In this document: positions 14,331-41,523 of the stretch, one piece after another | How the letters are laid out: each line of letters begins with the position of its first letter | Position numbering within the stretch: the first letter of the stretch is position 1 | Origin: Bifidobacteriaceae bacterium | Lineage (GTDB): Bacteria > Actinomycetota > Actinomycetes > Actinomycetales > WQXJ01 | Assembly (NCBI GenBank): GCA_031265345.1 | Contig: JAISCU010000451.1 | Coordinates: forward strand, 1 to 43,781 | Direction of reading: 5' to 3' | DNA: 43,781 nucleotides | The notes under the pieces: generated by a model | Database searches by the model: none | What the model saw: only the letters and a program-made list of their open reading frames with translations | Told to the model about the DNA's origin: nothing | Made by a program: the position numbers and the translations under genes

Positions 14331-14377
14331 ACGTTCGGGGGCGCACGGCCTGGTGGCGGTGTCCCCGTTACGAACGC
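14331..14377 (+). other. Imperfect hairpin between ABC exporter and TerY-like gene
   Basis: ACGTTCG (14331-14337) pairs with CGAACG (14371-14376), with a second pairing block GGGG/CCCC inside. It lies in the 198-bp gap that breaks the otherwise tight gene spacing, so it may be a transcript-processing or attenuation site. Weak, because the helix is interrupted. Confidence 0.3.
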
Positions 14378-14511
14378 GACGCGGAGTGAAGAATGGCTTG
14401 CCCGCAGCACCAGGATGCAGTCTGCGAGGCGCAGACATGCTGCCGATCGAGCAAGTGCTTGAACACCCGGACAGCGATTGTCTCATCGAATACCGAACCC
14501 AGGAGGAAACC

Positions 14512-16358: not shown

Positions 16359-17715
16359 CGAACGGAAGCTGACGATTGGCTCGAAGATCGGTTCCGGCGG
16401 CGCGGGCGACAGTTTCTTGCTTGACCGACCCTTGCGTCCCGACCTGCCAGCCGAAATGGTCTACAAGCGCTGGCGGGAAGGAACCGGACCTACGGGGGCC
16501 GCGCAGGTGGCTGCCCTGGTCGGCTTCCGGGATCGCCTGGACTCGGAGGACCGGGCCTACTTGGACGAGGTCGCTGCGTGGCCCCGCGAGATGGTGGCGG
16601 CCGCCGGGCGCGTCGCCGGCTACCTGATGCCGTGCGCGCCTGCGGAGTTCATGCACCGGAACCCGGCGTTCGGCCCGCAGTGCTCATCCGTCAAGCTGTT
16701 GTTCGCCAAGGCGAGGCGCGGGCGGTCGGCGGGCGCCGAGGTTCCGGACGATTCGGATGTGGTGTCCCGTCTCGTGATCGTGGCGAAACTGGCCCACGCA
16801 CTGAGGTGGCTTCATTCCAAGGGATGCGTGTTCGGCGATCTTTCGCATGAGAACGAGTTGTACGCCGTCCAGGGCCAGCCCCGAATCTACCTGATCGACA
16901 CGGATGAAATCGCCCTGCCCGGCAACCGGGTCCCACAGCATGAGACCCCTGGCTACCGCGCCCCGGAGGCGGCCCAGTTAGGACACTTCTCCAGCCAGCA
17001 GGCGGATGTCTACAAATTCACGTTGGTACTGGTCAGAGTGCTGTCGCCGCCGCGTGAACAGCTCTCTCAGACGGCCAGCCCCGACTTCGTGAGCGGAGTG
17101 CTGGACGCGGACGGGGTGGGTTTGGTCGCGCGAGGGCTCGCGACGGATCCCGCCACGCGGCCGTCGATGACCGAGTTCTACGACTACCTCTACCGCTTTG
17201 TCGGCGCGCAGTTGGGCACCCCGCCGGTGGTCACCTCCGTCACGCTGGATCGTGGCTTCGCCGTCGCGGGCGAACAGGTTACGGTCACCGTCCGTAGCGA
17301 CGGTGCCTCCACCGTCGCCGTGACGCCGCCCGGCTGCGCGGCCAGCGAAGGTCTGGTCGGGAACCCGGTGAGCGTCTCGTTCGACGCACGGTCGAGCGGC
17401 CCGGTTCTTGTCCGGGCCGTCAACCAGAACGGCGTGGCAGCAGCGGTGTCTGAGCCGCTGCACGTGTTGCCGCCAGTCAGGGCGCCATCCGTGGCGCGCA
17501 TGGACGCGCGACGCCCGGATGCAGTTTGCGTCAATTGGAGCGAGGCCGCGTTCGCCGCGGGTTCGGGGTGGCAGGAGTTGCCCGATGCCGTCCGTCTCGG
17601 TCCGGTGGGCGCGTCGGCTGCCTTTGTGGCGGACTTGCCCGCCCGGAACTACTCCGGGCCCCTCTTCTCATCTGGACTGATGCCAGTCCTCAACTGCTAC
17701 TGGAAAGGAAATTGA
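16351..17715 (+). CDS. Protein kinase with C-terminal Ig-like domain (TerY-P triad)
   Basis: 454 residues. The N-terminal about 290 residues form a eukaryote-like kinase: glycine loop IGSGGAG (13-19), candidate ATP lysine K39, catalytic loop FGDLSHEN with D163 and N168, metal-binding D183 in IDTDE (replacing DFG), and PGYRAPE. This divergent catalytic loop is usual for kinases of TerY-P triads, and the essential residues are present. Residues about 290-375 form an Ig-like beta sandwich (GEQVTVTVRSDGASTVAVTP); the last about 75 residues are unassigned. GTG 16351 is the start, inside the end of the phosphatase gene. The DUF4407 gene follows after 2 bp. Confidence 0.84.
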   Translation: MIDERKLTIGSKIGSGGAGDSFLLDRPLRPDLPAEMVYKRWREGTGPTGAAQVAALVGFRDRLDSEDRAYLDEVAAWPREMVAAAGRVAGYLMPCAPAEFMHRNPAFGPQCSSVKLLFAKARRGRSAGAEVPDDSDVVSRLVIVAKLAHALRWLHSKGCVFGDLSHENELYAVQGQPRIYLIDTDEIALPGNRVPQHETPGYRAPEAAQLGHFSSQQADVYKFTLVLVRVLSPPREQLSQTASPDFVSGVLDADGVGLVARGLATDPATRPSMTEFYDYLYRFVGAQLGTPPVVTSVTLDRGFAVAGEQVTVTVRSDGASTVAVTPPGCAASEGLVGNPVSVSFDARSSGPVLVRAVNQNGVAAAVSEPLHVLPPVRAPSVARMDARRPDAVCVNWSEAAFAAGSGWQELPDAVRLGPVGASAAFVADLPARNYSGPLFSSGLMPVLNCYWKGN

Positions 17716-17717
17716 CC

Positions 17718-19163
17718 ATGAATCCGACTGTTCCCCCGACTCCTGTGGGACCCGTCGCCCGATGGCTCTGCCGCCTCGCCGGGATGGATCCCGACTTGGT
17801 CGACGAGTTGCCGAAGTCCCGTTACCAGCACGTGGCGGTAGCGAGCGTCATGCTGGGCATTGGCCTGCTCGCCTTCGCCTCCATGTCATTTGCAGTCAAG
17901 AGCACCGGAGTGGTGGACAGCTGGCAGCTCGCTGCGCTGGTCGGGGCATTTTGGGGCTGCTTGATCGTGACCGTTGATCGCGTCTTGCTCGTGAACATGT
18001 CGCGCCACCCCCAGGGCGGGTTCCGCAACGCGGCCCTCGCCTTCTGCAACCTGGCTGTGCGCGGAGCGATGGCGGCCGGAATCGGCTTCGTGATCTCGAT
18101 GCCTCTGGTGCTCCAACTGTTCGCGCCGGGGATCGCCGCCCGGATTGAGGCCAACCAGGCGCAAGCCCGGATCGATGCGCAGGAAAGCCTCGACGTCGAG
18201 TTCGCTGACATTGCTGACAAGGAGAAAGAACTGGAAGCGGCGCAGGGGGTGGCGACCGATGCGGGCTTCTACGATCCGGCGGCTGTCAATCCCGCGTACA
18301 GAGCGGCCGAGGACGCGAAGAACGCGGCTGGGGCCGAATGCACAGCGGCGAACGCCGCAGCGGAGGCCGAGGCGGCGGGCTCCGGCGGCACCGGCCGCGC
18401 CGGGTACGGCGAGGAATGGCAGCGGCTCAAAGGTATCGCCGAAGACAAGTGCGCGGTCTACCGCGACGCGGAGGCGGAGTTCAACCGGATCGCCGCCGAG
18501 ACGAGGGCTAAGCGTGACGAAGAGATAGCGGCGGCCCAGGCGGCCGCCACGGCAACCGTGGAGCGTCTGACTGCTGAGCTCAAGGTGCTCCGTGGCAAGC
18601 GCGACGGCCTCCAGCAAGACATTGAGACTTCGATCGCTGAATCCGACGGCCTGCAGGCGCGCATCGACGCCCTCTACGAGCTTTCCGACGAGAGCCGGGG
18701 AGTGCGTCACGCGAGGTATGGCCTGATGTTCGTGCTGATCGCGATCGAGGTTGTCCCGATCCTGTCGAAGTTCTTCCGCCAGGTAATGCCTCCTGACATC
18801 CACGACGGCTTGGTGGCGAAGCGAGAGGCGGCCAAGTTGGGGCACGAGGACCTGGGGCTCGCCGAGCAGCACAAGGCGGCGAGGATCCGGTCCCGCGCGG
18901 TGGTCGATGCGGCCCAGGATTGGCGCGTTCAGACGGCTCAGGCATCGCATGAGGTCAATGCGGTGGGCGTCGCCTACCAGAAGGAAGTAGAGCTCAAGAG
19001 GCTCGAAGCGTGGCGTCGGGCGGAGGAAGCGAACAGCGCCGAGGCGGTGGCGCGCGCGGCTGCGCGGCTGAACCGCACAGCCGCCCACGTCAGAGACGCC
19101 GCGCAGGAGGCCGTCCAAGGCGCGACCGCCCCACAGGCTGGCCTTGGTCTGCAGACCCCGTGA
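17718..19163 (+). CDS. DUF4407 membrane protein
   Basis: 481 residues from ATG 17718, which follows GGAAAGGAAAT; the frame is open further upstream but overlaps the kinase gene. Layout matches DUF4407: three membrane segments in residues about 35-140, a long charged alanine/glutamate-rich coiled coil (about 145-335), one more membrane segment (YGLMFVLIAIEVVPILSKFF), and a helical cytoplasmic tail. DUF4407 proteins are membrane-anchored coiled-coil proteins with no proven biochemical role; they could act as a scaffold or sensor for the TerY-P triad encoded immediately upstream. It converges on the AAA+ gene with a 15-bp gap, too short for a clear terminator. Confidence 0.85.
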   Translation: MNPTVPPTPVGPVARWLCRLAGMDPDLVDELPKSRYQHVAVASVMLGIGLLAFASMSFAVKSTGVVDSWQLAALVGAFWGCLIVTVDRVLLVNMSRHPQGGFRNAALAFCNLAVRGAMAAGIGFVISMPLVLQLFAPGIAARIEANQAQARIDAQESLDVEFADIADKEKELEAAQGVATDAGFYDPAAVNPAYRAAEDAKNAAGAECTAANAAAEAEAAGSGGTGRAGYGEEWQRLKGIAEDKCAVYRDAEAEFNRIAAETRAKRDEEIAAAQAAATATVERLTAELKVLRGKRDGLQQDIETSIAESDGLQARIDALYELSDESRGVRHARYGLMFVLIAIEVVPILSKFFRQVMPPDIHDGLVAKREAAKLGHEDLGLAEQHKAARIRSRAVVDAAQDWRVQTAQASHEVNAVGVAYQKEVELKRLEAWRRAEEANSAEAVARAAARLNRTAAHVRDAAQEAVQGATAPQAGLGLQTP

Positions 19164-19178: not shown

Positions 19179-20816
19179 TCAAGCGGCCTCGGTCGGCCGG
19201 CCCGGCTGGTGGCGGAAGACCGCTTCGCGGGTCAGGACGTACTGGCTGCCGTCCGGCGCCCTGAGGATGGGAGCCTTGGAGAACGCCGCCGCGCGGGCGA
19301 TGTCGCGCGCGGCGGCAACATCGATCATGGTGCCGTGGCGGTCGGACGGTGGCGCCGCCACGTCGATGATGTAGGCCTCCGAGTCCCGCACGACTTTCGG
19401 CTCCGCACCCAGGTCGGTGGCCTCGCGGACGTCCTTGCTGCGGACGCAGGGCGATCGGCGGTTGCGCGCCGCCGCGATGCTCGCGTGGACGATTCGTTCC
19501 AGTTCCCTGAAGTTCTCGTCGCGGTACTGGTGGCGTTTGAGGGACTCCAGCGCGTTGCGACTGATGGCCTTGACTTTGAATCCCCGGTTGTGGGCTGGGT
19601 TGAGCGCCACGAAGTCGATCAGCCTCTCCAACTCTTCCGGCTCGCGGTCGCGGAGCGGCGGGATCTCGATCTTGAACTGGAATCTGGCGCTCAGATCGTT
19701 GCGAAACTGCTGCCGCTCGATCAGCAACGGCACGTCGCGATTGGTCGCGGCGACTATCCGGACGAAGCCCGGGAACGGCTCGATCCCGAATGGTCGAATC
19801 ATCCCGTCCTGCAGGAAGACCAGCATTCCGCGCTGGACCGAGAGGTCGAGGTCGCCGACCTCGTCCAGGAATGCGATGCCGTACGCGGCCTGGGCCAGCG
19901 ATCCGACCACTGGCTCCCTGATCCCGCTCCAGACCCCTGGCGCCGCCCCGAACAATTCGTGTGTCAGGTTGTTTGCCCCCAGCGCCGCGCAGTTCACGGT
20001 CGCGCTGGGGAGATCGGTTCCGCCTTGTGCGCGTTGGAGCAGGTCGCGCACCATCTCGAAGACCAACGTCTTGCCGGAGCCCGATTCGCCCTGGACCAGC
20101 AGTTTCTCCGCCGACCAGTCGGCGGATCCACGGTCGGGGTGCAAAAGTGCCTGCGCCTGCGGTGTCATGTGCGCAAAGAACAAGTCCCGCAACGACGGAT
20201 GCGCTCCCAAGCCCCCTTTGGGCAGGTTGGGGCTCAACGGACCCGAGGGGTTCCACCGGGGCACTGGCCCTCTTGCCGTCACAGAGTCGGGGAGTGGGGA
20301 GGCCATGGCCAGCACGGCGTCGCGGAGCCCGGACATGAACTTCTCCATCGTCTTGCTCTTCAGCGTGAGCTGGCGCTTCCTCCGGTACTGGACCTGATCG
20401 GTGTTCCAGTCGAAATATCTGCCCAGCCGGATGTCGTCGTCCTTGGGGGCCTCCCGGTACACGTCCTGACGGAGAAACTCCACCACGGCACGCTCGTTGG
20501 CCCCGTTCTCGCCCTCATTCAGGAGCTGCAGAGCATAAGGGCTATGGTGGAGCAACAACAGCGCCAACACGTCCGGGGTTACGCCCGAATCGCTGGTCAA
20601 GCCGACCCTCACATTCGAGTCATCCGCCCGCGCCAGCCAGTCCTCGAGGGCCTCGGTCTCCTCAGCGGTCGGGGCCTTGGGGACGTGGATGATCATGTAC
20701 ACGCCCCGCGCTTCGGGATTGGAGCCCAGGGCGACGCGGGCGATGGTCTTGCCGTTCCGTTCCGCCAGCCGCACGACGGGCGCGGGCACGTCGCCCACGA
20801 TCAGACAGCGATTCAT
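19179..20816 (-). CDS. Sigma54-activator-type AAA+ ATPase lacking the GAFTGA motif
   Basis: 545 residues. The N-terminal about 190 residues are unassigned. The AAA+ core runs from about 220 to 470 and is of the bacterial enhancer-binding (RtcR-like) class: Walker A GESGSGKT (243-250), Walker B IAFLDE (D318, E319), sensor region VRIVAATNRD, a candidate Arg finger in NDLSARFQFKIEIPPLRDR, and the NFRELERIV helix. The loop that should read GAFTGA is GVWSGI (294-299), so contact with sigma54 is not expected; actinobacteria generally lack sigma54 anyway. It is the third gene of the polymerase operon (ATGA overlap with the 358-residue gene). I infer that it remodels or loads the fused RNA polymerase or its accessory factor. 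Confidence 0.87.
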   Translation of the reverse strand: MNRCLIVGDVPAPVVRLAERNGKTIARVALGSNPEARGVYMIIHVPKAPTAEETEALEDWLARADDSNVRVGLTSDSGVTPDVLALLLLHHSPYALQLLNEGENGANERAVVEFLRQDVYREAPKDDDIRLGRYFDWNTDQVQYRRKRQLTLKSKTMEKFMSGLRDAVLAMASPLPDSVTARGPVPRWNPSGPLSPNLPKGGLGAHPSLRDLFFAHMTPQAQALLHPDRGSADWSAEKLLVQGESGSGKTLVFEMVRDLLQRAQGGTDLPSATVNCAALGANNLTHELFGAAPGVWSGIREPVVGSLAQAAYGIAFLDEVGDLDLSVQRGMLVFLQDGMIRPFGIEPFPGFVRIVAATNRDVPLLIERQQFRNDLSARFQFKIEIPPLRDREPEELERLIDFVALNPAHNRGFKVKAISRNALESLKRHQYRDENFRELERIVHASIAAARNRRSPCVRSKDVREATDLGAEPKVVRDSEAYIIDVAAPPSDRHGTMIDVAAARDIARAAAFSKAPILRAPDGSQYVLTREAVFRHQPGRPTEAA

Positions 20817-21889
20817 GAGGCGGCCCTCCTACGGGGGGGACGTGCCGTCGATCGCGCGACGATCAACCCGGGCGGGTCGAACGCGCCGGCCAGGGCCAGG
20901 GTCGCGACCGGTTGCGACCTCCCTGTCCTGCCGGTCACGCCGAGGTCGTCGAGCAGAGCATCCGGCGAAGTGAGCGGCCACAGGGCGCGGTGGCGGGCGA
21001 TCACGCCGGGCCGGTGCGCCACGGCCAGCAGGGCCTGGCCGTGGGCCCGCCGGATCGATTCGGGCTTGACCGCGGGGTTGCGCGCCATCTTCTCGATCAT
21101 CGGAGCGGTCAGGCTTTCCGGCTTGTCTTCGACCACCTGTCTGCCGATTCGTTCCAGATCCCGGAACAGGCTGTCTTGGCGTCCCTGGCCGAACAGCCAC
21201 AAGGGTGCTAGGCCGAATGGCGTGCCCACCACCACCCGTCTGTCACGGCTGAACTGGCCACTCGAGCGTTCGATGGCTCGGGCTCCGGTGACCTGGCGCA
21301 ATTCCGTCACAGTCTTGCCTTCGGCGTTCTTGGCCACTTTGCCGTCAAGGCCCTTGACTGCCACCCATTTCATAGCTGTCGCGGGCGGCAGGGCGCGGAC
21401 CGCCTCCAATAGGCTGGATGAGCGCAGCGCTGGGGCCTGAGACCGTATCAGAGTTTCCGCGATCTGGGACCAGCCGTAGGCGAGGCGTTCCAAGCGCTCG
21501 TCGGTCTCGGAGTCGCCGGTGAAGGGCAGCCCGATCATGTAGCCCAGCCGATCACCGTCGAGGGTGATCGAAAGCCTCACCCACGGCAACCACGATGGCG
21601 ACGGTGACGGGGCCGGCAGACCGCGATCGTCGTCGCCCAGCAGCACGTCATCCTCGTCCGGCGACCCTTCGGGCAGATCGTCGAGGCTGGGCGCGTCGTC
21701 GAGGCATGCTTGGTCCTCGGGCCAGTCGGCCTCCTCTGTGGGGTTGAGCCGGTCCTGGGCCCAGGACGCAGCGAACCTGTCGGCCGCGGTGTAGCGGACC
21801 GTGCGCGTGGCCGCCCCTGTGCCGGCAGTGGCGCCGACATCTGCCCCAGGGCCGAGGTCCCAGGCCGCCCAGAAGCCGGTCCCGCTCAT
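20813..21889 (-). CDS. Unrecognised protein of the fused-polymerase operon
   Basis: 358 residues. I do not recognise a family. An acidic low-complexity stretch (about 55-95, rich in D, E and P) separates a short N-terminal part containing FWAAWDLGPG from a mixed alpha/beta C-terminal two thirds. The end is basic (ARPPRRRAAS), suggesting nucleic-acid contact. No membrane segment and no Cys cluster. The start overlaps the polymerase stop and the stop overlaps the AAA+ start, each by 4 bp, so the three proteins are translationally coupled and probably work in one complex. Possible roles are a promoter-recognition factor, an alpha-like assembly factor or the AAA+ substrate; all three are inference from position only. 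Confidence 0.7.
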   Translation of the reverse strand: MSGTGFWAAWDLGPGADVGATAGTGAATRTVRYTAADRFAASWAQDRLNPTEEADWPEDQACLDDAPSLDDLPEGSPDEDDVLLGDDDRGLPAPSPSPSWLPWVRLSITLDGDRLGYMIGLPFTGDSETDERLERLAYGWSQIAETLIRSQAPALRSSSLLEAVRALPPATAMKWVAVKGLDGKVAKNAEGKTVTELRQVTGARAIERSSGQFSRDRRVVVGTPFGLAPLWLFGQGRQDSLFRDLERIGRQVVEDKPESLTAPMIEKMARNPAVKPESIRRAHGQALLAVAHRPGVIARHRALWPLTSPDALLDDLGVTGRTGRSQPVATLALAGAFDPPGLIVARSTARPPRRRAAS

Positions 21890-24800
21890 GACACAGCTCC
21901 CGCCGCGAGTCTGGTGCGGGGTCCGCCGAGGCGTCTTGGCTCCTCGCCCAACGCATTCAACAACCAGGTCAGGTTCCCGCGGGATGTGGCGGCCTCGAAG
22001 GCTGATCTTCCTCGCGCCTGGGCGCAGGCGATCAGGCTCCGCTGCCCCGCAGGCGCTGTCTCCCGCAACCTGTCAAGCTCGAGGAACGTGTCCACCAGTT
22101 GCCGAAGCATCAAATGAACGTGGACCGGGTGGATCTCGCCTTTCAACAACGCGCTGGCGTGTTCCGCGATGGGTTGGAGGTAGTCGGCTCGTAGCTGAGG
22201 ATCGGCCAGGTCAGCGCCTTGTTGGAGATATTCCCGCAGGTTGCGGGCCTTGCCCGTCGAGCGGAGGCCGAAGACAGTCGATCTGCCTTGGCCGAAGACC
22301 GCTCTCAGTTCGCCGAGCGTGTCGCCGAGGGAGCCGCTCTGGCCGCCGCCGTGGAAGACTTTCATGGACAGCTGGGTCGAACGTTCGCCGATGAGCATGG
22401 CGGCGAGCACGCCGACGCGAGCGCCGATTGGCGGAGGCTCGCCCTTTCCCGGGTCCACGCCGTAGCAGGACTGGCAGACGCCCACTGGTGAGGCGCAGGT
22501 GAGCGGGGACCGTGACACGGCATCGGGCAACTTGCACTGCGCTTCCAAAACCACGACGGCGTCGGCGACCTCGACCAGCGTCTTGGTCAGAGCCCCGGCG
22601 TGCGGCGAGGTCAGTTTCTTCTCCGCCAAACTCGCCAGTGAGCCGGTAGCGGTGGAGAAATAGTCGGAGTTCGTGAGGCCTCCCAGGAAACAACCTGACA
22701 CGTCGCGAACCGGCGTCAACGGGTGGCCGGCCGCGACCTCGCCGCGCCGGTCCAGGAGTTGGCGAACGGCGTCGGGCTTGCCTGCGGCCCCCGCTGCGAC
22801 GGCTTCCGCGAGGCGGCCACCGGTGGAATCGGCCAGCAGATCGAGGGCTCCGATCGACCAACCGGTCGCCGTGTCGAAACCGCATTGCTCCAGTTCGACC
22901 AGCGCGGCCAGCGCCGTCTGGCCGTCCGCCTGCGTCGCCACAATCCCGTCGACCGCCGTGGGAAGGCTTTCCGCGTCGAGGACCGGCGCATCCGTTCCCA
23001 GACTGGCCGGAAGACAGGGAGGCTCCGCCACGCTCGCGAGGTAGAGTCCCAAGGCTATGTCCAGGCCCATCTTCGCCAGTACCTGGCCGTTGGCGGCCGA
23101 CCGGATGACTGCGGTGGGGGAGAGTTTCATCCAGGCCTCTCCGCGGGCGTGGCCGGTGACGGGGCGGTGCACGGCCACGGTGTCGCCGTCGAAGTCGCCT
23201 GCCAGCCCGGCGAGCACCAGAGGATGGAGGTGGATCGCGTCGCCTTCGACGGGGATCGCTCGCAACGCGACCATGTTGTAAGGGTGCAAGGACGGCTGCC
23301 GGTTGACTATGACCACATCGCCGTGCGGCTCCAGTCCATTGACGCCGAGCCCTGCGGCGAGAGTGCGGGGGAGACCCACTTCGGCAGGACCCAGGGCGAG
23401 GTCTGGGACTATCACGGACCGGCCGGAGAAAGTGGTCGCTTGGCCCAGCAGATAGCGGCGGAGGAGCCCGCGCTTGCCGGATAGGCGGCCCCAGATGGTG
23501 TCCTGGGTCCGCTGTGTCCGGAGCTGCTTGTTACCGGATTGCGGCACACCGAGGATCGCCTTGAGGGCACGCTGGACTCGCGCCCACACCAGGTCGGCTT
23601 GGCGTTCCAGGCCGGTCCCGGCGAGCCGTTCATGTTCGATCAACAGCGCGGCGAGGTCTTGGTAGGCCTTGTCCATCCCCTGACGTTCGACACCTGGAGC
23701 CGAGGCGCGGAAGGCGGGCGGCAGCACGGGCACGGATGTGACTTGCGGCAACGCGGGGCAGCCCGCCTTGCGCCATGGATGTGGCACGGGGTGGGGTAAA
23801 GGTATGGCCCAGCGAACCTGCTCGCGTTCGGGACTGCCGGGCTCCCCATGCACCGCGGCGCCCGAGAGCGGGTCGGTGGAGGCCCTCGAGGAGAGGCCTG
23901 CGTTCAGGGTCCCCTCGGAACCGCCCGCAACCGGGCCGTTGGATTCGTCTGCCGGATTCATCAGGAGCGACGGAACGGTCGCCTTGTCTCGGTGGCCAAG
24001 GTCGCGCCATCCCGGCAGCTCCGGGTAGTGTGTGCCCTGCCAGACCGGGGTCAACGAGCCGACGTCCTCCCTTGCGAGCTCCTGGAACGGGCGCGGAGGG
24101 CCGTCACCCGCGCCGAGTCCCAGTCCCGCGACGGCGAGGTGGGCTTGGACCGCACGTAGGGAGGCGCGGGGCTTGCCGGTGGCCCAGTCGGAGGTCGCGG
24201 AACGAGCCCGCAACGCGTCCGCCAAGACCTCGGTCGCGCCGGCGGCCTCCAAGGCCCACACCTCCATCTCGCCGAGGGACTGGGCCGCTCCGACCCAGTG
24301 GTCGTGGTCGAACCAGCGATGTTTGGCGGGCTGGGCGGTTAGTGGCGATCTCCGTGGCTCCGGGCCATGCACACTCAGCTTCGACGAGGCCAGGTGGTCA
24401 AGCTTGACGATGTACTGCGGGCCGACCACTACGCCGTTATCGCCTCCCAGGAGCGCGCCCCCAAGCATCGTGAGCTTCATGCGCCCGCGGGGGGCACCCA
24501 GGGCGTCCAATTCTTCGGCGAGAGCGGCAGGATCCGCGATGACCCGCCCGGCGCGGCGGCTCCCGGAGCCGGCGAGCATGGCGGCTAGGCCGGTGTGCAT
24601 CTCCCACAATTGGCCGATGTTCAGGCGTCGCAGCACTCCCACAGGGTTGAGGATCACCTCGACGGGCGTGCCTGCGGGCAGGTGCGGCGTGCCTTTGGCG
24701 AGCCTCGGCATGTCGCTGACTGGCAGGATCGCGGAAACCACGCCCTTTCCCTGATGTCGATTCGACAGCTTGTCCCCCACCGCCAACGGCCGTTCGACGC

Positions 24801-26679
24801 GGACGAGGAAGGACACAGCGCAACGCTCCGGGTCGTCGAACACATCCAGGAGCTCGCCCGCAACCGGCGAGCAGACCCGTGCCGTGCGTCCATCCCGGCC
24901 CGTCACCAGAAGCACGGTCTCGTCTTTGCTCACCAAGGTCGGCTCGGTAGCGCCCGGCCAAACCAGTTGCGTGGCGGGGTGCCCTGGGGGCTTTGGCTGG
25001 TCCACCCGCACAATGTGCGTGGAGGTCATCCGTTCCGCGAACGCCTCGCTGACCACTATTCCGTCCTCGTAATTCAGACCATGCCAGGGCGTGAGCGCCA
25101 CCAGGGCGTTGACCCCCAGGCACAGCTGCGCGCGGTCTCGCTGCTCGCCCCGGATCCGGACGTCTGGGGCGTGCGCCACGACCCGCCCGGCGCTGACCTC
25201 CTCGCCCTTCGCGACGTCCACGAACCATGTGTTGTCCGGACCGGAGCGCGCCGTCCACGGCGCTCCGTAGCTGATGCGGACGGGGCCGCGAGAGGTGGCG
25301 ACAGTGATCTGCTGGTCGCCTACTTCGGTGACGATGCCGCCGCGTCGGCTGATCGCCACTCCCTGAGCCATTCCTAGGACGTGTTCCCAGCCCGTTGCGA
25401 TGAGCGGTGGCTCGCAGCCCGCGACGGGAACGGCTTGCTTGAGGTTCTTGGACCCGATGGACGCGCGCGCCGGGTCGTCGTGGTTCACGAACGGGATCAG
25501 CGCGGCGCTCGCCGAGAGGTCGTACCAGTCGGCCAGGCCCTCGGGCGCGTCGGCACGGGACCCGACGGCCGCGAACCGGACGAGCCCAGTGTCGGTCGAT
25601 TCGGGCGTCTGCACGGGGCACAGCGTGCCGCTCCAACCGGGTTCCAGGTCCCTCAGGTCGGCCCGCCCTCGGATCTTGCCGAGACCCCGGAAGCCGATGA
25701 AACAGGTCCTGGCGGCCTGTTCGATTCTCGCCAGGGTGGCCCCCGAGTCGGTTCGAGTCACGACCGAGCTGACCCCGGACTGGCCGCCGGCCAGTGCGGT
25801 GAGGGCAATCCCGGCGGCCTTGGCGGCCCGCCAGACCGTGTCGTCGAGGCAGCCAGCGACCTGGTCGTCACCGCGTTGGCCGCTCCTGCGCTCTGGCGCA
25901 TTGACCATGCCGAAACGTGAGTAGACCAGTTCGGCCATCACCTCGTCCGTCCCGAAGAGCCTGTTGCGCGATGCCGCCGTGCGGCTTGGCCGCGCCCCGG
26001 CGGGCTCGTCGAGCGCGCGATCCCGAGCGCTCTTGAGGGCCGCGACCACCACTGTCTGGTTGCGCTCGGTCGCTTCCAGGCCGAGGGCGAAGAGAGTCGT
26101 CTTGACCAATTGCTGGTCGGCATACCTGCCTGGGAGTTTGCCCAGCGCCGCCCATGCCAAGTTTTCCCAGGTCGACGGCTTGTCCGGGTTCCCGAAGACG
26201 TCCGGGCCGAGCAACGAGGCGATGACAACATCTATCTTCCAACCGGCACCGCTGGGGCGCGGGATGACATGGAGGCCGGATCGCAGGCGAACGCCCATTC
26301 CCGCGCTCAGGGGGCCGCCGAGCCACAAGCCCGAATGCCGCCCGGGCGAGGCAGCCACGATGCCACCGATGGCAGGCGGAGGTCTCCCCTCGTGAGTCGG
26401 ACCCGGCACCGGCCACTTGAGCTGCGCGGTGGTCCGATAGCCCTCGGCTTCGAACTCGAGGTCGAGCGGGGCGAGCCAAGCGGGGGTCAAGTTCCATCCC
26501 AGGCGGCACTCGTCCCAATCCGGTCGGCCGAGGGCCGAGGCGGTGCCGGTCACCGGCACACCAGTCTTTGCGGACGCCAGGGCCGCTAACGCGTCGGCGA
26601 GCAGTTGGTGGCATTCCTCGCCGGTGGACCGGGGGATTTCGGGTGGCTCGGATTCGGGTGGAGGGGGAAGGGTCGTCAT
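21886..26679 (-). CDS. Compact RNA polymerase beta-beta-prime fusion
   Basis: 1,597 residues, about two thirds of a normal beta plus beta-prime. Beta motifs in order: CPVQTPE (354-360), LIPFVNHDDPARASIG (394-409), GLNYEDGIVVSE (534-545), GDKLSNRHQGKG (lysines K637 and K645), LNPVGVLRRLNIGQ (R685), GEMEVWALEA (803-812). Beta-prime motifs follow: VPVLPPAFR (983-991), SGKRG to FSGRSVI (switch 2 region, 1067-1090), NRQPSLHP (N1126, R1127), catalytic DFDGD (1162-1166), bridge helix (about 1340-1372), zinc Cys 1382, 1395, 1402 and 1405, trigger loop TQLSMKVFH (H1443), and a C-terminal clamp piece. Missing or reduced: N-terminal beta lobes, flap, beta-prime Zn finger 1, large beta-prime inserts. No alpha, omega or sigma gene is nearby. 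Start ATG 26679 has AAGGAG. Not the housekeeping rpoB/rpoC pair. Confidence 0.94.
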   Translation of the reverse strand: MTTLPPPPESEPPEIPRSTGEECHQLLADALAALASAKTGVPVTGTASALGRPDWDECRLGWNLTPAWLAPLDLEFEAEGYRTTAQLKWPVPGPTHEGRPPPAIGGIVAASPGRHSGLWLGGPLSAGMGVRLRSGLHVIPRPSGAGWKIDVVIASLLGPDVFGNPDKPSTWENLAWAALGKLPGRYADQQLVKTTLFALGLEATERNQTVVVAALKSARDRALDEPAGARPSRTAASRNRLFGTDEVMAELVYSRFGMVNAPERRSGQRGDDQVAGCLDDTVWRAAKAAGIALTALAGGQSGVSSVVTRTDSGATLARIEQAARTCFIGFRGLGKIRGRADLRDLEPGWSGTLCPVQTPESTDTGLVRFAAVGSRADAPEGLADWYDLSASAALIPFVNHDDPARASIGSKNLKQAVPVAGCEPPLIATGWEHVLGMAQGVAISRRGGIVTEVGDQQITVATSRGPVRISYGAPWTARSGPDNTWFVDVAKGEEVSAGRVVAHAPDVRIRGEQRDRAQLCLGVNALVALTPWHGLNYEDGIVVSEAFAERMTSTHIVRVDQPKPPGHPATQLVWPGATEPTLVSKDETVLLVTGRDGRTARVCSPVAGELLDVFDDPERCAVSFLVRVERPLAVGDKLSNRHQGKGVVSAILPVSDMPRLAKGTPHLPAGTPVEVILNPVGVLRRLNIGQLWEMHTGLAAMLAGSGSRRAGRVIADPAALAEELDALGAPRGRMKLTMLGGALLGGDNGVVVGPQYIVKLDHLASSKLSVHGPEPRRSPLTAQPAKHRWFDHDHWVGAAQSLGEMEVWALEAAGATEVLADALRARSATSDWATGKPRASLRAVQAHLAVAGLGLGAGDGPPRPFQELAREDVGSLTPVWQGTHYPELPGWRDLGHRDKATVPSLLMNPADESNGPVAGGSEGTLNAGLSSRASTDPLSGAAVHGEPGSPEREQVRWAIPLPHPVPHPWRKAGCPALPQVTSVPVLPPAFRASAPGVERQGMDKAYQDLAALLIEHERLAGTGLERQADLVWARVQRALKAILGVPQSGNKQLRTQRTQDTIWGRLSGKRGLLRRYLLGQATTFSGRSVIVPDLALGPAEVGLPRTLAAGLGVNGLEPHGDVVIVNRQPSLHPYNMVALRAIPVEGDAIHLHPLVLAGLAGDFDGDTVAVHRPVTGHARGEAWMKLSPTAVIRSAANGQVLAKMGLDIALGLYLASVAEPPCLPASLGTDAPVLDAESLPTAVDGIVATQADGQTALAALVELEQCGFDTATGWSIGALDLLADSTGGRLAEAVAAGAAGKPDAVRQLLDRRGEVAAGHPLTPVRDVSGCFLGGLTNSDYFSTATGSLASLAEKKLTSPHAGALTKTLVEVADAVVVLEAQCKLPDAVSRSPLTCASPVGVCQSCYGVDPGKGEPPPIGARVGVLAAMLIGERSTQLSMKVFHGGGQSGSLGDTLGELRAVFGQGRSTVFGLRSTGKARNLREYLQQGADLADPQLRADYLQPIAEHASALLKGEIHPVHVHLMLRQLVDTFLELDRLRETAPAGQRSLIACAQARGRSAFEAATSRGNLTWLLNALGEEPRRLGGPRTRLAAGAVS

Positions 26680-26775: not shown

Positions 26776-27021
26776 ATGAAGCACATGACCACCACGAGCA
26801 GCACCTCCACGAGCCCGGTGCGGGAGCGTCGGGCCGGAGAAGAGCTTCCCCCAGGGATGTTCCACGGGGGCGAGGAGGTCCCGGAGGGCACGTTCCATGG
26901 GGGCGAGGAAGTCCCAGAGGGGACGTTCCACGCCGCCCTGGTCCAGTGTCCCAAGTGCAAGCACTGGTTCGCTTCGGACACTTACGCCTGGCGCGTCCAT
27001 CACCGGTCCTGCCGCGGGTGA
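26776..27021 (+). CDS. Small protein with three 11-residue repeats and a C-terminal zinc knuckle
   Basis: 81 residues. A Ser/Thr-rich start is followed by three tandem 11-residue units of the form E-E-[LV]-P-x-G-[MT]-F-H-[GA]-[GA], then CPKCKHWF...H-H-x-x-C, a C2H2/C2HC-like zinc finger ending close to the C-terminus. ATG 26776 has AAAGGAGG. Function unknown. It is the first gene of the operon containing the JAB-E1 fusion and Clp-type ATPase, and is divergent from the polymerase. Possible roles are a modifier or substrate for the conjugation system, or a zinc-dependent adaptor to nucleic acid or polymerase. The repeats are fresh at both protein and DNA level, which suggests recent expansion. 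Confidence 0.72.
   Translation: MKHMTTTSSTSTSPVRERRAGEELPPGMFHGGEEVPEGTFHGGEEVPEGTFHAALVQCPKCKHWFASDTYAWRVHHRSCRG
26839..26937 (+). repeat. Three 33-bp in-frame tandem repeats
   Basis: Units start at 26839, 26872 and 26905. Units two and three encode the same first nine residues (EEVPEGTFH) and differ mainly at third codon positions; unit one is more diverged. This pattern means that the protein repeat is under selection. Confidence 0.8.
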
Positions 27022-27094: not shown

Positions 27095-27583
27095 ATGAAC
27101 GCGCCCATCACCGAGGCCCATGCCCGCCGAGTGGGGGTCTGGCCCAACGTCTGGTATCGGGCTTTCCCAACGCGCCGCGACTACTCGTTCACTTTCGAGC
27201 ACGCGAACGGCGGGGGCTGGATCGTCTACATCAACAACTCGCCCGACTACCGGGGGAGGGCGTCCGGCTCCGTGGCGAGCCATCGCCTCGGCATCGGCAC
27301 CCGCCCCTACATCTGCTGGGACTCCGCCATCGAGACGCTGTCCCAAGCTCAGGGGGTAGCCGCGCTGTGGGCCGATTCGACGGAGAATTACATCGCGACC
27401 GGCGCCTTTCGCCCCGCTGAAGGCCGGCCGCAGGTAAAGGATCGATCGGTGCTGAACGGCTACGCCAGCCGGGGGATGGCGGCCAGGCCGTCAGCGGCGC
27501 TCCGGCCCGGCTCCGACCAATCCGCCGGGCCAGGCGCGCCCAGGTCCCTCTGGTCGCGAGTCAGAGGCCAACTGTTCAACTGA
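27095..27583 (+). CDS. Small single-cysteine protein beside JAB-E1 (possible E2-like partner)
   Basis: 162 residues. Not confidently recognised. The first about 105 residues form a compact alpha/beta domain (WYRAFPTRRDYSFTFEHA, GGGWIVYINNSPDY, SHRLGIGTRPYICWDSAIE, then a helix ending with WADSTENYIATG); the rest is low-complexity and probably disordered. C74 in YICWD is the only Cys in the protein and is followed by a helix, which recalls E2 conjugating enzymes where the active Cys follows a His-containing stretch. That, plus the E1-JAB gene 15 bp downstream, makes an E2-like role possible but unproven. ATG 27095 follows GAGGAGAGGAG and a strong hairpin. Confidence 0.65.
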   Translation: MNAPITEAHARRVGVWPNVWYRAFPTRRDYSFTFEHANGGGWIVYINNSPDYRGRASGSVASHRLGIGTRPYICWDSAIETLSQAQGVAALWADSTENYIATGAFRPAEGRPQVKDRSVLNGYASRGMAARPSAALRPGSDQSAGPGAPRSLWSRVRGQLFN

Positions 27584-27598
27584 AAGGAACGAATCGTC

Positions 27599-29365
27599 AT
27601 GAACTCTTTGAATCCCTTCCGAATCGTCGCTGTCGTGGCCTGGCCCCTGACCCGCTGGCTCGGCCTCCGGTCGCTGAGGCCTGAGACGGATCCGCCCACG
27701 AACCCCGAGGTGGGTCAGTGGGAACCGTCTGCCGGGCTCCTCGGCCCCTCCCCTCACGTCGCGCCACTGGGCCCGGATTCCCAGGATCGGGTGACCTCAC
27801 TCGACCCAGCGGCCCTGTCACAGAAGATGTCATTCGCCATCGCGTGCGACGCCTACCAGGAGATCGCCCGGAGTATCGGCCAGCGCCACGCGGAGACGGG
27901 TGCCGTGCTCGGCGGGTCTCGTGCGCTGGGCCTAATCACCCACGTCCACCTCGACCAGCGGGCCGAGGTCAGCGGCGTCACCTACTCGCCGCACATCGCC
28001 ACGGTCAACCGGCTGCTGCGCGAGGAGTGGGACCCGAACGGGATCGATTTCATGGGCTTCGTCCATAGTCATCCTGGCGGTTACGGCCGTCCGTCAACCG
28101 GCGACCAGATCTACGCTGAACGCATCCTGCGGGCGCTGCCGAGGTTGGATCGCATGGCTATGCCGATCGTCCAGACGGTCCCCGACACGGGCCAGTTCCG
28201 GATGAACGGTTACATGGCGGTGCGTGTAGGTAGCCCGGCGCGCGAACGTATGTGCAATCACCGCCCATCCGAGGACAGCCGGTCCGTCCGGGTCTTGGAG
28301 GCCCCGCTGGCGATCATCGACCCCGCTCGCCCGTACGGCGGAGCGAAGGCCAATCCGTACCTGGCCAGAGTGGCCACCGCCTACGACCGGGAGGTGATGG
28401 CCACGGCAAGGATCGTCGCCATCGGCGTGGGTGGCTCCGTGGGCTACCTGGAGACCATGGCGCGTGCTGGGGCCGGGCAGTTCGTATTGATCGATCCGGA
28501 CGTGATCGAGCCGGCCAACGTGGGCACGCAGGCGGTCGACCCGGAAGACATCGGCCGGCCCAAAGTCGAGGCCTTGGCGGCCAAACTGACCCGTCTGAAT
28601 CCGAACTGCCATGTGTGGACGGTGCAGGCGCGCGACGAAGCAGTCGATGACATCGGCTTCCACCGCCTGCTCCGCGAGCCGCTGACAGGCGGCCCCAATG
28701 TGCTCCCAGCTATGACGCTCCTGTGCGCCTTCACTGACAGCTTCCGCGCGCAGGATCGCATCCAGCGGCTGGGGTTGCATTTCGGAGCGCCGGTGCTCGC
28801 AGCGGCCGTTTATGCGGAGGGGCGCGGAACGGAGATCGCTTTCGCCGCGACCGGGTTGACCCGGGCATGCATCCGCTGCGCCCTGTCTTCGCGCTACGCG
28901 GCGGTGCTGGGGGGCGGCGCCTCGGGGGAGGCCGCGTCCGACGGGACTCCCATGCTGGCCACTGACCGTCTGAACGCGGCGAAGCAGATCGTCACGCTCG
29001 GCCTGCTGCACGCGCTCAGCCCGGTCGCGAATCCTGACCACCCGGCCACCGCCAGGTACCGGGGATGGATGGCGCGGATCAAGGACCGAAACCTGGATCT
29101 CACGCGGCTCGACCCGGACCTCGACCTCCCATCGTTCCGGTTGCTCCGGGGAGTGGGGGAGGGCCGCTGCGTGATGGACGAGACCGTCTGGACCGAGCCC
29201 ACTCCCGACGGACCTGACGCTCCAGCCGGGCCGTGCCCGGACTGCGGTGGAAGCGGGGACCTCGCGGACGGCATCGGAACCTTCGCCGACACGCGGACCA
29301 TGCCAGCCCATTTCGGCGCGGGACGCCGCGCTCCGGTCGTCGCACCGGTGGCCACAACCGTTTGA
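27599..29365 (+). CDS. JAB (JAMM) peptidase-E1/ThiF-like fusion
   Basis: 588 residues. Residues about 75-210 form a JAB/MPN metallopeptidase: E99 and the JAMM motif HSHP-x7-S-x2-D (H156, H158, S166, D169), all present. Residues about 265-500 form an E1/ThiF-like adenylating domain with G-rich loop GVGGSVG (276-282) and the LIDPDVIEPANVG block; the Arg of the usual NLNRQ motif is Thr. CIRC may hold the catalytic or a structural Cys. A C-terminal CPDCGGSG knuckle follows. JAB removes and E1 activates ubiquitin-like proteins in bacterial conjugation operons. ATG 27599 has GAAAGGAA. No obvious ubiquitin-fold gene is adjacent. Confidence 0.88.
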   Translation: MNSLNPFRIVAVVAWPLTRWLGLRSLRPETDPPTNPEVGQWEPSAGLLGPSPHVAPLGPDSQDRVTSLDPAALSQKMSFAIACDAYQEIARSIGQRHAETGAVLGGSRALGLITHVHLDQRAEVSGVTYSPHIATVNRLLREEWDPNGIDFMGFVHSHPGGYGRPSTGDQIYAERILRALPRLDRMAMPIVQTVPDTGQFRMNGYMAVRVGSPARERMCNHRPSEDSRSVRVLEAPLAIIDPARPYGGAKANPYLARVATAYDREVMATARIVAIGVGGSVGYLETMARAGAGQFVLIDPDVIEPANVGTQAVDPEDIGRPKVEALAAKLTRLNPNCHVWTVQARDEAVDDIGFHRLLREPLTGGPNVLPAMTLLCAFTDSFRAQDRIQRLGLHFGAPVLAAAVYAEGRGTEIAFAATGLTRACIRCALSSRYAAVLGGGASGEAASDGTPMLATDRLNAAKQIVTLGLLHALSPVANPDHPATARYRGWMARIKDRNLDLTRLDPDLDLPSFRLLRGVGEGRCVMDETVWTEPTPDGPDAPAGPCPDCGGSGDLADGIGTFADTRTMPAHFGAGRRAPVVAPVATTV

Positions 29366-29374
29366 CCCAACCGA

Positions 29375-29419
29375 GGGAACCGGGCGGGCGGTGACGTCGC
29401 ACCCTCCCGCTCGGTTCCC
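29375..29419 (+). promoter_or_regulatory. Second intercistronic hairpin in the JAB-E1 operon
   Basis: Left arm about 29375-29391 (GGGAACCGGGCGGG...) and right arm about 29402-29419 (...CCCGCTCGGTTCCC) pair over about 17 bases with two mismatches. It lies between the JAB-E1 stop and the Clp-type gene and has no T-run. With the hairpin at 27039 it suggests differential control of genes within one transcript. Confidence 0.5.
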
Positions 29420-29442
29420 CGCCAATCGAAATGGAGAACCCA

Positions 29443-30858
29443 ATGACTGACTTGACCACTGCCGATGCCGCGAGCCTCGCCGCGCTCGAAACCCGGTCTC
29501 GCCGTGCGTGCGTGGTGTACCCCGACCACCCGCTACCGCCTGGGACCTTGCCGCCGTCGGGCCGGGTGGGGGTCGAGCGGACGGCTGGTCGGACCCTCCT
29601 GCATGTCCGGCGCGGCCTACGTTACGAAGGTGAGGACGGCGAAGTCCGTGACTGGATCGCCGGTGGGACTAGGGCTTTCGGGTCACTCGAAGACTGCCTC
29701 GCCTGGGTCCGCGACCGGATCCCGTCTGGCGAACAACCGAACGTGGTGGCGGCGATTCCGGACCGGCCGGCGCGGCTGCCTATCGAATCCGTGACGGAGT
29801 TGGCCCAAGTGGACGTTGCGCCGGCCGAGCCGCCCACGCCCGCCATGCTGGAGCGAATGCTGGCAGAGGACGTCCTGGGCCAGGACGCGGCGATCCGAGC
29901 GCTGGCCGAATTGGCCGGTCACCAGATCGCCAAGCCCCATCCGCGCCGACCGGCGTCCGCGTTGATGATCGGCGCGACCGGGACCGGTAAGACCTTGGCG
30001 GCCGAACGATTGGCCGCCCACCTTGGGGCTGTCACCGGAGCCGAGTGGTCCTATCAGCGGCTCGATCTGAGCGAGTTCTCCGAACGGCACAGCGCAGCCA
30101 GGCTGTTCGGGGCTCCGCCTGGGTACATCGGCTATGGTGACGGCCGGGACCTCGCCGCCGCGCTTCGGGCGAATCCGCGCACTGTGGTCCTACTGGACGA
30201 GGTAGACAAGGCGCACCCGCAGCTATGGCGCTCGCTGATGAATCTGATGGACGCTGGTCGGCTCGGCGGCCAGGCGGCCGACATCGACGCGCGTCAGGCG
30301 ATTCTGTTATTCACGTCGAACAAGGACGCCGATGCCGTGGGGCGGCTCGCCGAGGCCCCCGATGCCGCGCTCCGGGCCTTCCTCCGCGACCACGGCTATC
30401 CGCCCGAGATAGTCGGCCGCATTGGTCGAGTGTTGGTCTTCCGCCCCCTGTCCGCTAAGGTCACCGCCCGGCTGGTGGTGCTCACGGTCCAACGGGTGGT
30501 CGAATCCTGGGGCCTGCGGTTGCGGCGAATCGATCCTGCCGCGGTCTCGTCGCTGGTCGAACGCGCTCCGGTTCGGTCAGGCGGACGCGACGTGGAGTAC
30601 TTCGTGGAGCGGGAACTCGCCGCAGGCCTGGCGGAGGCCGCCGGACTGGTCAGAAGGGCCACTGCGACCGGGGTGCTCAGAAGCTCGGGCACTGTCGATG
30701 CCGTCGGCCCAGCCTGTCTGGCTGCGCGAACCGGCGTGACCGTGGGAGCCCACGATGTGGTGGTGGATTCCGAACTGTCGGTGCGCCTCACGCCTGTCGG
30801 TGAGGCCGCTTCCACTCCTGAGGATCGAGGCGCGGCGGATTGTGACGGGGAAGAATAG
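29443..30858 (+). CDS. ClpA/ClpB D2-type AAA+ unfoldase
   Basis: 471 residues from ATG 29443; GGAGAA lies just before it, whereas ATG 29431 overlaps that site. The first about 130 residues are unassigned. The AAA+ domain is of the second (D2) type of ClpA/B/C: Walker A GATGTGKT (177-184), pore loop GAPPGYIGYG with Y228, Walker B VVLLDEVDKAH (D252, E253), LFTSNKD sensor 1, and a C-terminal lid (VLVFRPLSAKV). No Clp-N domain is attached, unlike normal ClpA/B. It should thread proteins; a ClpP-binding loop is not evident. A target in the JAB-E1 or polymerase system is inference. It ends 11 bp from the convergent caspase-fold gene. Confidence 0.87.
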   Translation: MTDLTTADAASLAALETRSRRACVVYPDHPLPPGTLPPSGRVGVERTAGRTLLHVRRGLRYEGEDGEVRDWIAGGTRAFGSLEDCLAWVRDRIPSGEQPNVVAAIPDRPARLPIESVTELAQVDVAPAEPPTPAMLERMLAEDVLGQDAAIRALAELAGHQIAKPHPRRPASALMIGATGTGKTLAAERLAAHLGAVTGAEWSYQRLDLSEFSERHSAARLFGAPPGYIGYGDGRDLAAALRANPRTVVLLDEVDKAHPQLWRSLMNLMDAGRLGGQAADIDARQAILLFTSNKDADAVGRLAEAPDAALRAFLRDHGYPPEIVGRIGRVLVFRPLSAKVTARLVVLTVQRVVESWGLRLRRIDPAAVSSLVERAPVRSGGRDVEYFVERELAAGLAEAAGLVRRATATGVLRSSGTVDAVGPACLAARTGVTVGAHDVVVDSELSVRLTPVGEAASTPEDRGAADCDGEE

Positions 30859-30869
30859 AGGACAGGTGG

Positions 30870-32006
30870 TCAACCGGGCAATTGCTCGCGCGCAGCCTTG
30901 CCTGCCTCGGTCAGACAGACCTGCCCCCACCACAGACAGGCCCAGAATAGGTCCTTCTCGCCCTCGGGAAGGCACACTCTGACCAGGCCCGCGTCTCGCA
31001 GGCGCTTGAGGGACTCCATCAGCCGCTGGTCGCGGGCCGCACGGGTGTTGGCCTTGGCGGGCACCTTGTAATTGGGTGGGCGGGATCGAAACGAGAAGGC
31101 AGTGTTCGGTCTACGCTTCGCGAGGTCCCCCAGGCCTTTCTTGAGATCCCGGCCGACTCTCCACCTCATCGCCTCGATGCTCGCACCAGGACCGGGATAC
31201 TCCATGTCCGGGGTGAGATCCCTAACGAACTCGCCACCGTCCGAGGTCGGCTCGAACTGGCGGAGGACTTCCATGTCCTCATCGCTGAGTAGTCTCACGG
31301 ACTTCAACAACGTCGCGTCCAACCAGCCTTTCATCACTGGCGGCACTCGTTTAGGGTCTGTCCCACTCACTCGGAGTGCGGCCGCGACTGAGCCAAAAAG
31401 GGACTGGGCGGTAATGCGGCCGGTCGGGTCCCAGGCCTTCACCTTGGAATCCTCGATCATGCCCTCCTCGCCGCCGCTGGCTCCGTGCAACAACGCCCCG
31501 GTAAAACGGTTGTCGCGCTGGTCGTCCTCCAACGTTGGGTCGTTGGCTATGACAACGGTGCCGCTTGGGACAGGGATCGACTCGACCGACTGCGCTTCGC
31601 CGCAGTCCAAGATCAGTGTTGCCCGCCTGATGTCGCGGTGTCTGATCTGGTTGAGGAGCCAAGTGAGGCGAATCGCGTGTGGATCGTTCTTGTCTCCATA
31701 TGGTTTGAAATTGGCCGCCGCCAAGAGCAGGTCGCCGGCGTTGCTAGCACCACGGCCGGCGTAGTAGAACAGGAATTGGCTTTCGTCGCCGCCCCTGGCG
31801 GCTTCCAAGACAGACACGAGGCGGTCTTGGAAGATTTCACGCCGGACGGGCCCGGTCAGAGCCGTCTGGGCCGGGTCGCCCCAGTCCCATGAGGGGTTGT
31901 CCCCGTGGAACTGCTGAGCGAGTCGGAGCGCACCGGCGCCGCACCCCTCTAGATCAGGGAAGAAGTCGTAGCTATCGATGCCCACGAAAAGCGCGGAGTG
32001 GGTCAT
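30870..32006 (-). CDS. Caspase-fold (peptidase C14-like) protein with degenerate active site
   Basis: 378 residues. Residues about 1-190 follow the bacterial caspase layout: ALFVGIDSYDFF, FLFYYAGRG, LILDCGEAQS, then a VVIANDP strand and an RFTGALL block. The usual GHG is GRG, so the catalytic His position is R85 (CGT, checked on the DNA). The usual D-x-C of the DCCHSG motif reads D134-C135-G136, so the catalytic Cys position is Gly, although C135 is one residue away. The C-terminal half is unassigned; its last about 90 residues look winged-helix-like (LMESLKRLRDAGLVRV...). Likely a pseudo-protease acting by binding. Start ATG 32006 overlaps the HD gene stop by 4 bp. Confidence 0.75.
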   Translation of the reverse strand: MTHSALFVGIDSYDFFPDLEGCGAGALRLAQQFHGDNPSWDWGDPAQTALTGPVRREIFQDRLVSVLEAARGGDESQFLFYYAGRGASNAGDLLLAAANFKPYGDKNDPHAIRLTWLLNQIRHRDIRRATLILDCGEAQSVESIPVPSGTVVIANDPTLEDDQRDNRFTGALLHGASGGEEGMIEDSKVKAWDPTGRITAQSLFGSVAAALRVSGTDPKRVPPVMKGWLDATLLKSVRLLSDEDMEVLRQFEPTSDGGEFVRDLTPDMEYPGPGASIEAMRWRVGRDLKKGLGDLAKRRPNTAFSFRSRPPNYKVPAKANTRAARDQRLMESLKRLRDAGLVRVCLPEGEKDLFWACLWWGQVCLTEAGKAAREQLPG

Positions 32007-35394: not shown

Positions 35395-35523
35395 TGGGGG
35401 CTCCTTGCTCGTTGATCGCTGTCGATTGTCCCACTGAAGACGGCAGTTGGCCAGTGTCCGTCAATCAGGACATGGAGGGAGCAGGCCGACGCACCACTGT
35501 GGTTCACGGCCATGCGGGCGGGC

Positions 35524-36600: not shown

Positions 36601-36614
36601 CGGGCCGGTAGGGG

Positions 36615-37742: not shown

Positions 37743-37832
37743 GAAGGACGTCCCAGGTTTGGGCACGAAACGCGGTCGGCAAGACACCACAGGGGCGCTC
37801 AGGGCAGTGACCCTGGCTGGTCGGCTGAGGTA

Positions 37833-41521: not shown

Positions 41522-41523
41522 TG

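Follow-up and report, generated by a model that had tools for sequence, protein, structure and literature searches.

Introduction

In the sigma-54 transcription systems an AAA+ ATPase carrying an L1 loop (PspF, NtrC, RtcR) opens a locked RNA polymerase, the core of which is built on two double-psi barrels. RtcR is a CARF-AAA-HTH (helix-turn-helix) activator of RNA repair and senses RNA damage. Fused rpoB-rpoC housekeeping enzymes, full-length chains with beta followed by beta', exist in Helicobacter and Wolbachia, and multisubunit polymerases with reduced beta and beta' are found in jumbo phages. Accessory enzymes of the two-barrel type consisting of one polypeptide have been described as well: the prophage polymerase YonO has few residues in common with its cellular counterparts, and a trigger loop could not be detected in it (PMC5467207), whereas the NCgl1702-like enzymes of mobile elements are described as lacking the flap-forming insert (PMC7824862). 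In this article we describe a locus in a stretch of 43,781 nucleotides from a Bifidobacteriaceae bacterium (GenBank assembly GCA_031265345.1, contig JAISCU010000451.1; this whole stretch is called the window, its GC content is 61-69%), where the gene of a single-chain RNA polymerase is followed by the genes of a protein of 358 amino acids (aa) and of an AAA+ ATPase of 545 aa. On balance we favour the view that the three genes make one self-contained sigma-54-style transcription machine, composed of a single-chain core, a sigma-54-like factor and a sensor-bearing activator.

Compared with the known sigma-54 systems, the core is here one chain and all three parts stand in one operon. No description of this three-gene system was found in the open-access literature, a scope outside which most subscription papers fall, so that this is not proof that it is unpublished; the accessible parts of two surveys of conflict systems (PMC8195603, PMC12839542) contain no such polymerase.

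The single-chain polymerase

A sequence-only reading of the window had claimed that the diagnostic motifs of both large polymerase subunits follow each other in the right order in one chain of 1,597 residues, and this was borne out by Pfam, which placed Rpb2_3, Rpb2_6 and Rpb2_7 (beta) ahead of Rpb1_2 and Rpb1_5 (beta'), and by the profile of the polymerase family (34 rows, compared with the profiles of 11 housekeeping enzymes), which aligned with beta over 496 columns (E 5.2e-73) and with beta' over 490 columns (E 3.5e-57). A PDB sequence search returned bacterial beta and beta' chains, with a top score of 173.6 bits (best 60 of 193 distinct sequences). Every motif that had been named as retained, that is the catalytic DFDGD, the two beta lysines (K637 and K645), E538-D539, R685, the bridge helix, Zn site 2 and the trigger loop, was recovered in the residue map. 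The partners of beta E813, D814, K1065, K1073, R1106 and H1237 and of beta' R425, D460, D462, D464, C814, C888, C895 and C898 are identical in 34 of 34 rows, and the partner of the trigger-loop H936 is His in 24 and Gln in seven of them. Since the catalytic residues are kept, also across the 33 relatives, the enzyme is, as judged from its sequence, almost certainly built to polymerise; it looks active, as had been suggested, and their identity in all rows rules out a relic. The beta' residue N458 is the sensor of the 2'-OH of the incoming nucleotide, and its partner is Ala in 32 of the 34 rows, Ser in one and Asn in one; because this sensor is replaced, a relaxed sugar choice is possible, and the selection between ribo- and deoxynucleotides may be looser.

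According to the residue map the beta' zinc ribbon, the flap tip, the jaw and other parts are absent from the chain, and the fork region, the bridge helix, the trigger loop and Zn site 2 are kept. The structure model covered residues 1-1200, and the structural matches listed were all beta-type chains, the matched range of the model beginning at residue 17-19 in most of them. By sequence, the profile alignment finds no likeness between the N-terminal 310 residues and beta, yet their structure matches the N-terminal half of beta. Two facing double-psi barrels had been expected: the beta fold including its barrel is present in the model, and the beta' barrel, together with the bridge helix and the trigger loop, is present by the sequence profile, a part of the beta' half lying within the modelled residues.

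The protein search with the polymerase gave 729 proteins under E 0.001, of which the best 120 were listed; here 33 fused relatives of similar size (P0002-P0034, 1,477-1,808 aa) were found, and they are followed in the ranking by longer fusions and housekeeping chains. The family is rare. In a tree of 61 sequences and 879 columns the window protein (P0001) and its relatives up to P0033 form one clade (support 1.0, stem 0.87), and the same clade was obtained with a support of 0.976 and a stem of 0.91 in a second tree of 94 sequences and 797 columns, from which five identical rows had been dropped and two of 40 viral loci, devoid of one half, had been left out. Six actinobacterial housekeeping enzymes fall outside this clade in both trees, thus a recent copy of the actinobacterial rpoBC is ruled out. 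Closest to the clade, on long branches, stand P0034 and the metagenomic fusion P0036, the grouping of all three having a support of 1.0, and a wider group in which the clade lies with viral polymerases has a support of 0.992. The named sources of operon members are Propionibacteriaceae (P0004, P0131) and Bifidobacteriaceae (P0138), and with the GC content of the window they make an actinobacterial host probable. When genome contigs were scanned with the polymerase, the best 80 of 592 relatives were housekeeping rpoB/rpoC with an identity of 27-33% in the best segment, a result which neither finds nor excludes family members.

The enzyme differs from the fused housekeeping rpoB-rpoC, as had been proposed, since it is shortened, does not group with the actinobacterial housekeeping enzymes and stays far below the cut-offs of the fusion models (NF007172, 261.6 bits against a cut-off of 5,372; NF011417, 247.1 bits against 4,632). 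YonO and the NCgl1702-like enzymes resemble it in being accessory and of one polypeptide, but the window enzyme can be aligned with beta and beta' over 986 columns and has retained its trigger loop; it is far closer to the bacterial beta and beta' than these enzymes, a comparison that for NCgl1702 rests on the published description. The jumbo-phage polymerases, in contrast, have their halves mostly split between open reading frames (ORFs): one ORF holds both in five of the 38 viral loci having both parts.

Some relatives carry additional parts. P0042 (1,984 aa) and P0046 (1,917 aa) begin with an alpha part (PF01000 and PF01193, residues 20-207), which is followed by the beta and beta' domains, so that alpha, beta and beta' are united in a single protein; a scan of viral contigs with P0046 gave zero matches. 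P0004-P0007 have an extra stretch of some 120 residues in the C-terminal part of beta', inserted after residue 1539 of the window protein; it carries a metallopeptidase domain of the YgjP-like type (P0004, 58 bits; precomputed PF01863 in P0004-P0007), that is a protease within an RNA polymerase. P0024 and six other relatives contain an insert of 25-28 residues after residue 948; in P0024, the only one in which the cysteines were viewed, it has a C-x-C and a C-x2-C just ahead of the beta' start and resembles the beta' zinc ribbon, which the window protein no longer has.

The operon and the partner proteins

The genes of the polymerase, the 358-aa protein and the ATPase follow each other downstream in this order on the minus strand, and each downstream gene overlaps the preceding one by 4 bp. 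Linkage was tested by the exact size of the longest source contig of each protein cluster, the same contig being inferred from the same size. For ten of the 33 remaining relatives of the polymerase, the contig size is exactly that of one of the 30 other ATPase relatives, against none of 85 unrelated ATPase rows. Among seven relatives of the 358-aa protein, three match a polymerase contig size (17,380; 60,228; 72,178) and three an ATPase contig size (17,380; 72,178; 30,491); since the sizes coincide, all three genes are apparently present on two contigs other than that of the window. The three-gene operon is thus well supported, and of the private, standalone polymerase first proposed the single-chain core stands, but the enzyme is not alone, being the first gene of this operon. 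A repeat search around the operon gave nothing telling, and no enrichment of the sigma-54 promoter consensus was seen.

The top five structural matches of the model of the 358-aa protein were all sigma-54, 1.6 above the next row, and in the best one residues 99-293 of the model lie on residues 272-469 of sigma-54. All 200 shuffles stayed below the profile signal to sigma-54 in this same region. It should be emphasized that this likeness rests on modest scores. In distinction from genuine sigma-54, a sequence-level match is missing (none of eight relatives matches the sigma-54 Pfam models at E up to 10), and upstream of the matched region there seems to be too little sequence for a core-binding domain. 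The exact RpoN box was not found, and an arginine-pair stretch stands at the expected place in six of the eight relatives. The predicted fold probably resembles the DNA-binding half of sigma-54, with its long helix, HTH and RpoN bundle. The loss of the flap tip from the polymerase and the apparent loss of the core-binding domain from the 358-aa protein fit each other.

The ATPase is of the bacterial enhancer-binding type (PF00158, 102.8 bits, cut-off 20.2), and in the comparison of its family profile with the PDB the first 35 of 38 distinct matched sequences were NtrC-type regulators. RtcR is its nearest NCBIfam model (126.6 bits, under the cut-off of 650) and its PADLOC match is also RtcR-type (138.9 bits), but the RtcR match is confined to the AAA domain, residues 235-465. 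The family has kept Walker A, Walker B and the arginine fingers. The known activators differ in their L1 loop: exact GAFTGA was seen in none of the 31 ATPase relatives, an aromatic residue occupying position 3 in 29 of them and Thr or Ser position 4 in 26. In PspF, the Thr at the corresponding place couples the ATPase to region I of sigma-54 (PMC7057263). Pfam found no HTH family in the protein, which ends in a tail of 104 residues; this is an apparent difference from these activators. By eye, the first 190 residues suggest a sensor domain of the Rossmann type. Genome samples searched with the ATPase were empty (0/4, 0/394, 0/296 and 0/396), which shows nothing, since in the large samples only three to four candidates per genome were scored and there was no known positive; in a further sample one of eight genomes, a Sphaerobacter, matched in the AAA part only (profile positions 238-482). 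A distant relative of about 30% identity, P0158, comes from a named isolate, Mycobacterium sp. ZZG (contig of 28,503 bases).

Sigma-54 in actinobacterial hosts

The sigma-54 system is missing from Actinobacteria, according to a published account (PMC3162934). In our search none of 148 genomes of the class Actinomycetes passed the cut-off of the sigma-54 Pfam model, one staying under it; the same search was positive in 39 of 61 genomes in the phylum of a Desulfosporosinus genome and in four of 14 named controls. Against this absence, in a set of four actinobacterial genomes that of an Actinomadura exceeded the cut-off, at 25.4 bits; because the match spans only 32 positions and the ORF resembles a LacI-type regulator by eye, it was counted as a chance HTH match. 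In hosts without sigma-54, an ATPase of the sigma-54-activator type next to a sigma-54-like protein calls for a polymerase as partner, and such an enzyme is encoded by the first gene of the operon.

Proposed mechanism and alternatives

In the sigma-54-style machine that we favour, the single-chain polymerase would be the core, presumably unable to fire by itself, the 358-aa protein is predicted to be its sigma-54-like promoter factor, and the ATPase would open the promoter only once its N-terminal sensor domain had been triggered. ATP hydrolysis by the activator would remodel the sigma-54-like protein via the changed L1 loop. Acting together, the three proteins would transcribe a small private set of promoters, possibly those of the island's immune-type genes, independently of the host polymerase. 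More tentatively, and as a possibility that we would not put further forward than that, the operon could be a portable orthogonal system of about 7.5 kb in bacteria otherwise without sigma-54, locked until its sensor is triggered and then expressing a private immune regulon which phages seizing the host polymerase cannot silence.

If the favoured reading is true, the sigma-54 logic occurs in the form of a small mobile cassette whose core is a single chain, and accessory polymerases of the cellular type occur outside phages and killer plasmids. It would become testable how little of a cellular RNA polymerase suffices for regulated, activator-dependent initiation, a long-standing question, and a switchable orthogonal polymerase would be at hand for laboratory use. 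The sigma-54-like protein, once confirmed, may show what sigma-54 needs when its core-binding domain and the flap tip are both gone.

It is conceivable that the polymerase and the ATPase cooperate, the latter acting directly on the former, and that the 358-aa protein is another kind of adaptor or an inhibitor; we regard this as rather unlikely, since its best structural matches and its profile signal point to sigma-54, and an adjoining ATPase of the activator type predicts a sigma-54-like partner.

Still less likely is an enzyme for the late genes of a phage or other mobile element, as YonO is for SPbeta. Accessory RNA polymerases are known from phages (PMC5467207, PMC7824862), and the nearest neighbours P0034 and P0036 and the well-supported group with the viral enzymes would agree with such an origin, but this placement is weak because the branches are long. 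Furthermore, no phage structural gene was recognised in those window proteins that were scanned with Pfam, relatives of the ATPase or of the 358-aa protein were absent at E 1e-10 from all 40 viral polymerase loci, tblastn with the polymerase reached 80% query coverage in none of the 66 plasmid and 47 phage records having a match, and the scan of a viral collection with P0001 gave zero matches. Zero relatives came from the viral scan with the family of the 358-aa protein, eight generic activator matches from that with profile A2, and zero matches from P0121 against plasmids at 1e-25.

We give little credence to an immune effector that makes RNA outside ordinary promoter transcription, for instance by copying or extending RNA as a signal or toxic product. 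The TIR, nSTAND, HD and caspase-like neighbours, the RtcR-type likeness of the ATPase, RtcR being a sensor of RNA damage, and the loss of N458 would suit it; on the other hand the fork region, the bridge helix, the trigger loop and Zn site 2, by which a DNA-dependent enzyme handles its template, are kept, and a sigma-54-like partner would be useless to it. A fused housekeeping polymerase of an odd lineage has precedents in Helicobacter and Wolbachia, but it is made highly improbable by the model scores, the missing parts and the great rarity of the family.

Features and genomic neighbourhood

Table 1. Positions of the operon parts and of neighbouring genes in the window
Feature	Position	Strand	Evidence
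Single-chain RNA polymerase, 1,597 aa, ATG start, operon gene 1	21886..26679	-	ORF, Pfam, profile alignment, model
N-terminal part, residues 1-310	25750..26679	-	profile alignment, structural match
Beta core, residues 311-829 (E. coli beta 516-1297), flap cut down	24193..25749	-	profile alignment, residue map
K637 and K645, partners of beta K1065 and K1073	24745..24771	-	residue map
Beta' core, residues 949-1449 (E. coli beta' 95-942 with deletions)	22333..23835	-	profile alignment, residue map
Residue 1160, partner of beta' N458, adjoining the catalytic motif	23197-23202	-	residue map
Catalytic DFDGD, residues 1162-1166	23182..23196	-	ORF translation, residue map
Bridge-helix region, residues 1341-1372 (beta' 773-804)	22564..22659	-	residue map
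Zn site 2, C1382, C1395, C1402, C1405 (beta' C814, C888, C895, C898)	22465..22536	-	residue map
Trigger-loop region, residues 1425-1448	22336..22407	-	residue map
Sigma-54-like protein (predicted), 358 aa, gene 2, overlaps gene 1 by 4 bp	20813..21889	-	ORF, family, model and structural match, profile comparison
Residues 223-233, profile-aligned to the conserved stretch after the sigma-54 HTH (E. coli RpoN ~392-403)	21191..21223	-	profile comparison
Arginine-pair stretch, residues 278-284, start of third helix of C-terminal bundle, opposite RpoN box by eye	21038..21058	-	family alignment, model
AAA+ ATPase, sigma-54 activator type, 545 aa, gene 3, overlaps gene 2 by 4 bp	19179..20816	-	ORF, Pfam, NCBIfam, PADLOC, family alignment
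Walker A, residues 243-250	20067..20090	-	family alignment
L1 loop, residues 294-299, at the GAFTGA place but changed	19920..19937	-	family alignment
Walker B, residues 313-320	19857..19880	-	family alignment
Arginine-finger stretch, residues 371-378	19683..19706	-	family alignment
Three TIR-domain proteins, HD-CE, caspase-like, radical SAM, nSTAND1 with pentapeptide repeats	2532-5705, 30870-41554	-	Pfam, PADLOC
vWA, PP2C phosphatase and kinase-like genes in a row	14353-17715	+	
DUF4407 membrane protein	17526-19163		
81-aa ORF	26776-27021	+	
162-aa ORF, ThiF/JAB protein, ClpB-like AAA protein	27095-30858		

The window is rich in immune-type genes by Pfam and PADLOC, among them TIR proteins, an nSTAND NTPase, an HD protein and a caspase-like protein, and it also contains a ThiF/JAB protein with a ClpB-like AAA protein and a vWA-PP2C-kinase triad. 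This agrees with the description of the enzyme as a shortened, diverged fusion among signalling genes. This gene content suggests a possible defence role of the operon; neither the polymerase nor the 358-aa protein is represented by a PADLOC model.

The vWA-PP2C-kinase triad, which we take to resemble the TerY-phosphorylation systems, is followed by the gene of the DUF4407 membrane protein. The 81-aa ORF has an AGGAGG-type site ahead of it, a C-terminus of CxxC zinc-finger-like type and a terminal Arg-Gly, and stands upstream of the 162-aa ORF and of the ThiF/JAB and ClpB-like genes, with which it possibly forms a ubiquitin-like conjugation operon.

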